NCBI GenBank assembly: GCA_938743325.2
Contig: OW568876.1
Coordinates: 1-64,000, forward strand
Direction: 5' to 3'
From: Pycnococcus provasolii
Lineage: Eukaryota; Chlorophyta; Pseudoscourfieldiophyceae; Pseudoscourfieldiales; Pycnococcaceae
DNA: 64,000 nucleotides
The first letter of the stretch is position 1, and each line of letters opens with the position of its first letter. Below are positions 53,109 to 54,754 of this stretch, piece after piece. The notes under the pieces were generated by a model. That model made no database searches, was not told the origin of the DNA, and worked only from the letters and a program-made list of their open reading frames with translations. The position numbers and the translations under genes are program-made.

Positions 53109-53995
53109 ATGATGGCCGCTCGTCTCATGGCTCGGGCCAGCCCTCGTCGTCTGGTGGCCCGCCGTAACGCCGTGGTTGCGTCGTCGTCGCGCGCGGTGCC
53201 GTGCTCCGTCACGCCCGAAGGAGTCGCCACTGTCAATAACAAAAGCGTGTCGTACGGCGCCACGCTCAAAACAGCCAGGCTCGTCAACTCCTCAGGCACG
53301 ACGACCGTCGGTGACGCAATTGGAGACAACGGTGTCGTTGTCTTCCTGCGACACTTGGGCTGGTAAGTCTACCTCTAACCATCCATGGCAGATGAACAAC
53401 AATCACTAACAACCTAACACACTAAATGAAATAGACTGTATTGCTGGTCGCATGCGAAGGAGGTTCGTCTTTTTTGCTTTGATTTGCTTCTTCTCGTGCT
53501 GAAATACAATCACTGACGCCATCAAACCTTCGACATTAGTGGTCGTCGGCAGTGGACGACCTCCCTGAGGGTATGCGACTTGTGATGCTTTCTATCGGCG
53601 ACGTGGAAAAACTCAACCAGTTTCTGGACGCGAATCCGGAAGTCACCCGCGACTTGATGTACGTCGACGCATCCGAGTACAAGTTTGATGCTTACAACGA
53701 CGCAGGTCTCGCGCTCATTGGCGATAACGAGGCGCAGAGTGCGGAAGCCGCGAAAGACATGAAACCTCCTGGATTCACGACTGGACAGTGGTGGACGTAC
53801 CTCACAAGCGTGATGAAGTTGTCTCCCGTACCGAAGGACATGAAGTTTGGCGAGATTCCAGAAGGCGTCAAGCGTCTCGGAGGCACTTTCGTCGTCGAAA
53901 ACGGCAAAATCACCGCCGCTTGGATCGACCCTCTACCTGGCTCATACCCAGAGCCTGCGGAGGTGCTTCGAACAGTCGAAAAAGTGGCTGCTTAA
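53109..53995 (+). CDS. SELU: Prx-like2/SelU-type thioredoxin-fold protein, probable selenoprotein
   Basis: 245 residues from three exons: 53109-53362, 53435-53462 (28-nt microexon) and 53540-53995; introns of 72 and 77 nt with GT-AG ends. Exon 1 ends VVVFLRHLG-TG and exon 2 begins with A, giving an in-frame TGA at residue 85 followed by LYCWSHAKE, i.e. a UxxC motif where relatives have CxxC (FLRHFGCxxC). Exon 3 continues in phase (WSSAVDDLPEGMRLVMLSIG, then GGTFVVENGKITAAW). Total coding length is a multiple of three. A SECIS-like stem-loop lies 66 nt after the stop. The basic N-terminus suggests organelle import. Family role: peroxiredoxin-like antioxidant or prostamide-synthase-type reductase; exact substrate unknown. 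Confidence 0.88.
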
Positions 53996-54754
53996 AAAGG
54001 ATTTTTTTTTTCACTTTTGCAAGCTTTTTTTTTTCAAGGACGAACGAAATACAGTACAGCGTGACGCGTCGTGTGCGCGAAAATAGGATCTGGATTTCCT
54101 TCGCACACGCGCTGATAATAATCACTGTGAGCTCGTTCTTTTGATGTAAATCGAACTCTTTCTCTTTTTTCCTCGCCGACGTGCCGTTGTGAACGGCGGC
54201 AGGACACACACACCTCTGCACGCGTACCAGCCGTAGCAGCTTCACGCTTAAAATAGGATGCACTAGTTGGTGGTGTGTGATTTGTGACGTTGTGTGCACG
54301 AATACCCCTCAGCTCGGTTCTACAGCGCCATTATCTAACAAGGTAATTTGAGGCTGGCACGTTTCACCCGTGTGACGGGTGTTAGAAACCTTCATCCTAG
54401 AGGATTTGAACTGGAAGGATCAATTTCCTGGGGTGAAAAAAAATTCACCCCGGTTGGCGATCACGGGGAAACCAGTCATAACCGTCACCGATCCCCGGCT
54501 AATTCCTACCCCTTGGACCCGCTCCCCCCCCACGGCCAACCCGAAAGGGACGGCCCCCCCTCCCTTCCATCCCCCCCTCACCTCAGCACACACGCAGTAC
54601 GCACCTTAAGAGGTACGGTACCGGTAGCGTGTAGTAATCTTACGTAGGTAGGTACTGCATTTATGTTTCTACACAGTCACAGCAAGGAAAAAAACCGCCG
54701 CCGTCGCCGTCGCCGTCGCCACCGCCACCGCCACCACGCCAAGTGTATCCTATC
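53996..54754. other. Convergent 3' region after SelU
   Basis: Besides the SECIS element this 759-bp stretch has no gene. It holds poly-T runs near 54003-54040, a C-rich stretch near 54525-54580 and a (CCGTCG)/(CCACCG) microsatellite at about 54693-54738 just past the stop of the translocator gene. Confidence 0.5.
54056..54126 (+). promoter_or_regulatory. SECIS element, type II, in the SelU 3' UTR
   Basis: Core 54061-54116. The non-Watson-Crick quartet is TGAC (54062-54065) opposite TGAT (54113-54116): U-U, G-A, A-G, C-U. Above it is an 11-bp helix (with one bulged T at 54069), then AAAA at 54080-54083 in the apical bulge, then a 4-bp helix (AGGA/TCCT) with an 8-nt loop. Below the quartet, ACAGT/ACTGT can form helix I. 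This is the SBP2-binding signal that recodes UGA as selenocysteine. Confidence 0.85.

Follow-up and report, generated by a model that had tools for sequence, protein, structure and literature searches.

Contig 16 of Pycnococcus provasolii raises the question of whether a redox protein can be encoded by three exons whose splicing itself creates a UGA codon for selenocysteine (Sec). The gene lies within bases 1-64000 of this contig, the 64,000-nt stretch of DNA that was analyzed (hereafter, the window), and the genome scans covered 32,333,900 bases in 46 contigs. An initial annotation of the window had read the gene as a SelU-type selenoprotein.

A UGA codon split by an intron

The gene was resolved into the following features.

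53109..53362, + strand: exon 1, with a start ATG at 53109 or 53112; an Ala/Arg/Ser-rich N-terminus, then VVVFLRHLG; the last bases are TG
53361..53362, + strand: bases 1 and 2 (TG) of the Sec codon, which intron 1 separates from the third, the A at 53435
53363..53434, + strand: intron 1, phase 2, 72 nt, GTAAGT...TAG, 37.5% GC
53435..53462, + strand: exon 2, a 28-nt microexon; the first base is the A of UGA, followed by LYCWSHAKE
53463..53539, + strand: intron 2, 77 nt, GTTCGT...TAG, 40.3% GC
53540..53995, + strand: exon 3, the rest of the AhpC-TSA_2 domain, with the stop codon TAA at 53993-53995
53362/53435 and 53462/53540, + strand: predicted splice joins, GGGCTG to ACTGTATTGC and GAAGGAG to TGGTCG, respectively

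When translated, the joined exons gave one frame with a 738-nt CDS encoding 245 residues and a single internal TGA at codon 85, in the spliced context VVVFLRHLG-U-LYCWSHAKEW. The border between exon 1 and intron 1 reads TGG TAA in genomic DNA, and the GC content of the exons (53.6-63.8%) exceeds that of either intron. The initial annotation had described a complete protein from three exons upon removal of the 72-nt intron 1, TG joined to A in frame at the redox position, and a 28-nt microexon next to the split codon; its exons, introns and frame are confirmed. It had also stated that no other intron 1 would provide a Cys codon at the redox position. We enumerated the frame-keeping GT-AG or GC-AG pairs for intron 1, with an intron length of at least 30 nt and intron 2 fixed (n = 21), and indeed none of the 21 yielded Cys there. 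The pair at 53363-53434 was the only one to retain both RHLG and LYCWSHAKEW, and it yields TGA. An open frame was obtained from 11 pairs (8 GT-AG and 3 GC-AG), all of which delete RHLG and the Sec position; LYC is retained by only one of the 11, which uses a GC donor.

Both junctions are also present in a deposited gene model. RI054_13g67220 of Pseudoscourfieldia marina (P0001; 206 aa) maps back onto the window DNA with 2 of 206 residues different, beginning at the ATG at 53112. It forms five exons, which contain the two junctions of the Sec gene and two extra introns, at 53232-53295 (64 nt) and 53571-53620 (50 nt). These extra introns shift the frame and then restore it, with the UGA avoided and the motif region out of frame: W-A-D-C of P0001 corresponds to TGG GCT GAC TGT over the join on the window DNA, the other frame of GGC TGA CTG. 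The two extra introns resemble annotation artefacts and may reflect a pipeline steering round a stop. The prediction that ordinary gene finding would break the gene in two came close, but the P. marina model instead has extra introns and a shifted frame at the active site. According to PMC11130579, the 18S rRNA genes of P. provasolii and P. marina are 100% the same; P0001 is therefore support from a near-identical gene and not a sign of deep conservation.

Family assignment and conservation at the Sec position

The Pfam family AhpC-TSA_2 (PF13911) matched residues 103-224 only, at 28.2 bits against a cut-off of 27, and was also matched by 13 of the 16 aligned relatives at E 0.01. Searching NCBIfam at E 1 gave a single match, to the SelL-related redox protein family NF040769, which was partial and, at 41.1 bits, did not reach the cut-off of 120. 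No family member was found in two sequence searches of the PDB, one of which gave two unrelated matches (E 0.34 and 0.53) and the other none. In a structure model of a relative (P0003), not of the protein itself, a strand at 106-111 is followed by Trp at the Sec position (117) and a helix at 118-129, with block pLDDT values of 86-91; the motif thus follows a core strand and stands at the start of a helix. In thioredoxin folds, CxxC is usually found at the start of a helix after a core strand.

Similar to Selenoprotein U (SELENOU / Prx-like2), which occurs in green algae and diatoms, the protein has an AhpC-TSA_2 domain and UxxC in place of CxxC, and is encoded by a green alga; unlike in SELENOU, its Sec codon is split by a phase-2 intron beside a 28-nt microexon. 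It differs from the NF040769 proteins in falling far under their cut-off and in having one Sec and one Cys, whereas SelL has two Sec residues, two residues apart (PMC3316567). We describe the protein from its sequence as SelU-like, not as a proven SelU, since it may belong either to SelU or to the neighbouring SelL-related Prx-like group. The SelU-type identity originally proposed holds for the domain and for UxxC; the exact subfamily may be either of these two. Of 36 algal genomes, more than half have a Sec-containing SELENOU, which is among the commonest algal selenoproteins (PMC7539508), and SelU is reported from O. tauri and T. pseudonana (PMC2375036).

A second sequence of this type is present in the genome.

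404596..404871 of contig 15, - strand: SelU-like paralog (L007) with an unsplit TGA

The TGA of the paralog is at the same codon, in LLRHFG-U-VFCWSAAKDW, and the flanks of this position are conserved. About 23 codons past the TGA, the paralog shifts frame by one base. By hand reading, a 59-nt GTGAGT...CCAG stretch starts one base before the TGA, and its splicing would restore the frame and delete UxxC. The paralog may therefore have an intronised Sec codon, be a pseudogene or contain an assembly error.

Forty relatives were collected from two protein searches, the second of which scored the 8000 candidates sharing most words. The codon is skipped via introns in two (P0001 and P0019), and six read through the Sec position, with Trp in four, Asp in one and Cys in one. 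The Trp relatives (P0003, P0004, P0005 and P0007) are environmental and have the motif G-W-P/L-Y-C; the Cys form, FLRHFG-C-LAC, is from a distant relative. In 32 of the 40, some of which were judged on their first 32 residues only, the alignment begins after the Sec position. Eight of these 32 start with MFCW, in which M is the residue directly after the Sec position; the first residues of P0036-P0038 are unaligned. Downstream of the codon, P0002 shares 99% identity with the protein over 147 aa. The pattern among the relatives fits a stop at the Sec codon, with W introduced by gene callers reading TGA as Trp; W could also be genuine, and introns and contig ends also shorten such proteins. If the Trp codons of the relatives are TGG, the Sec position is less conserved. 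Among pattern matches to the DNA behind the relatives, 0 of 68 in viral_contigs and 0 of 36 in genome_contigs were confirmed. The expectation that relatives have Cys or Sec at this position agrees with the Cys relative and the paralog TGA, but not with the four Trp and one Asp.

Sec machinery and a SECIS-shaped element

The initial annotation had proposed a search for Sec machinery elsewhere in the genome, and this machinery was found. A genome scan identified tRNA-Sec (69.5 bits, anticodon tca), and genome searches identified SepSecS, eEFSec (best PDB match at E 2.9e-115), an L7Ae domain of SBP2 type in a 1161-aa open frame (a PDB search with this domain at E 1e-3 gave SBP2 alone), and SelD.

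757116..758039 of contig 14, - strand: SelD (L022), fused behind a pyridine-nucleotide-disulfide-reductase-like part

Read by eye, the active site of this SelD appears to have Cys rather than Sec. TGA was present inside four of five GPx matches and two of three Rdx matches. From their motifs, we take the two TGA-bearing Rdx matches to be SelT and SelW; the TGA of the GPx, SelT and SelW genes is presumably at the Sec position of these families. The six loci (L013, L015, L016, L017, L018 and L019) are probable further selenoproteins, namely four GPx, one SelT and one SelW. Their TGA is contiguous, and three of the six have a SECIS shape, with a weak one for L015. TGA is likewise unsplit in the contig 15 paralog, although the exon-by-exon matching used favours unsplit codons and these counts do not measure rarity.

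Downstream of the split-codon gene, a candidate element was found in the 3' region.

54050..54130, + strand: SECIS-shaped element with the quartet UGAC at 54062-54065 and UGAU at 54113-54116, an A-rich apical loop and a 4-bp mini-stem

The hairpin is 66 nt past the TAA and 549 nt past the UGA; for mammals, PMC3316567 gives UGA-to-SECIS distances of 207 to 5207 nt. Helix II has 11 bp with one bulge, and the mini-stem is predicted when the quartet is held unpaired. Free folding of 54040-54140 gave a z value of -2.18, with 4 of 200 shuffles as stable, and paired some bases otherwise.

Under strict settings, the SECIS scanner found this element and that of SelW, and missed those of SelT and GPx. 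Relaxed settings were then used for the shuffles, the window and 19 other loci of the genome. When the 305-nt 3' region was dinucleotide-shuffled 2000 times, 14 of the shuffles reached the score of the element, and one other, unrelated place in the window (both strands) outscores it. In the 19 control loci (125,454 strand-bases, some of them overlapping, as in L008 and L009), four places score at least 9 and one scores at least 11, beating the element. A control place scoring 14 is about 1.4 kb from the Rfam match at L011 and was counted as chance; one scoring 9 coincides with L011 itself, the top Rfam SECIS_1 hit genome-wide.

589446..589507 of contig 3, - strand: L011, Rfam SECIS_1 at 24.6 bits, below the cut-off

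This place, given by both scanner and Rfam, may be a real SECIS. Among the seven other TGA-bearing genes, the SECIS shape was convincing in three and weak in a fourth (L015); the scanner found none at the contig 15 paralog. A genome-wide Rfam SECIS_1 search at E 10, in which 133 of 326 candidates were scored, listed neither the element described here nor those of SelW and SelT, and a window scan at E 5 gave no SECIS family. The covariance search of the 3' region proposed as a check thus produced no Rfam SECIS match.

The quartet is preceded by G, which is also the case in the 3' regions of SelW, SelT and one GPx gene of this genome. O. tauri elements, as described in PMC2375036, have G before the quartet in all but one and a long mini-stem in most. 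The element found here shares with these Ostreococcus elements the unpaired G preceding its quartet and the presence of an apical mini-stem; unlike them, it has a mini-stem of only 4 bp, and its helix II has a one-base bulge. MAFFT did not bring the helices of three SECIS candidates from this genome into alignment. The fold had initially been called canonical: its core, loop and position fit, but it has G instead of A before the quartet, the green-algal form.

Probable decoding of the split codon and its alternatives

The splice geometry, the UGA position, the paralog TGA, the SECIS-shaped element and the Sec machinery together support the initial interpretation. It is highly probable that the gene encodes a Prx-like2 (SelU-like) selenoprotein, with a UGA made by splicing and decoded as Sec through a SECIS and the machinery of the genome. 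Removal of intron 1 would join TG to A and place UGA in the frame of U-x-x-C, where it would be decoded by tRNA-Sec, eEFSec and the SBP2-type protein, with Sec insertion directed by the putative SECIS downstream. The selenol and the Cys three residues on would then form a redox pair, in what its family suggests is a thioredoxin-fold redox protein.

Three other explanations have to be weighed against this one. If Trp (TGG) were ancestral and the TG-A join had arisen by recent mutation, truncating or inactivating the gene, W would be expected in relatives, and it is indeed present in the four environmental ones; furthermore, the end of exon 1 and the first base of the intron together read TGG. 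However, the P. marina model also implies a UGA across this junction, the corresponding codon of the paralog is TGA, and most relatives lack an aligned residue up to and including this position, although introns or contig ends could also be the cause. The sequence downstream is conserved, as seen in P0002, and is followed by a SECIS-shaped element; moreover, the W forms are metagenome gene calls, perhaps of TGA under a Trp code. We consider this explanation very unlikely. Different splicing in vivo, by which the UGA would be skipped and a shortened protein lacking the redox motif produced, would agree with the 11 open pairs and with the absence of an internal stop from the deposited P. marina model. 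All 11 pairs, however, sacrifice RHLG and the Sec position, the one that keeps LYC needs a GC donor, and the P. marina model, which shares both junctions, bypasses the UGA solely through two extra short introns. Such splicing is highly improbable. The chance that the nuclear code generally uses TGA as a sense codon, as internal TGA codons in several genes might suggest, is close to negligible: the genes concerned encode GPx, SelT and SelW, whose TGA is at what we take to be the Sec position, and by mechanical count TGA terminates 10 of the 21 ORFs of at least 400 aa in the window.

For the preferred reading, a UGA decoded as Sec, the location of the last exon junction, 27 nt past the UGA, is also relevant to mRNA stability. 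Under the 50-55-nt rule that usually applies to mammalian NMD, termination at this UGA would be spared; by the standards of animal cells, the Sec codon lies within the 50-nt NMD-exempt zone and would have an exon-junction complex positioned shortly downstream of it. Green algae may not follow the mammalian distance rule. The split codon and microexon might be more than incidental, with splicing coupled to decoding or the mRNA spared when selenium is short, and with retention of intron 1 (TGG TAA) switching between a truncated and a Sec form; we regard this as very unlikely.

SelU selenoproteins are common in algae; what is unusual here is the gene structure. Phase-2 introns inside codons are ordinary, and split Sec codons are therefore expected now and then among selenoprotein genes. 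No report of an intron-split Sec codon was found in the open-licence papers covered, which is weak evidence. Since the UGA is created by splicing, ordinary gene prediction gets the gene wrong: the recoded codon is absent from genomic DNA and is missed by searches for in-frame TGA, and in the public annotation of a near-identical gene the active site is translated in a different frame. The selenoproteome of Pycnococcus is apparently undescribed, and this gene adds to it. The gene is also a naturally occurring case in which to ask whether decoding or mRNA decay responds to an exon junction located at a Sec codon.
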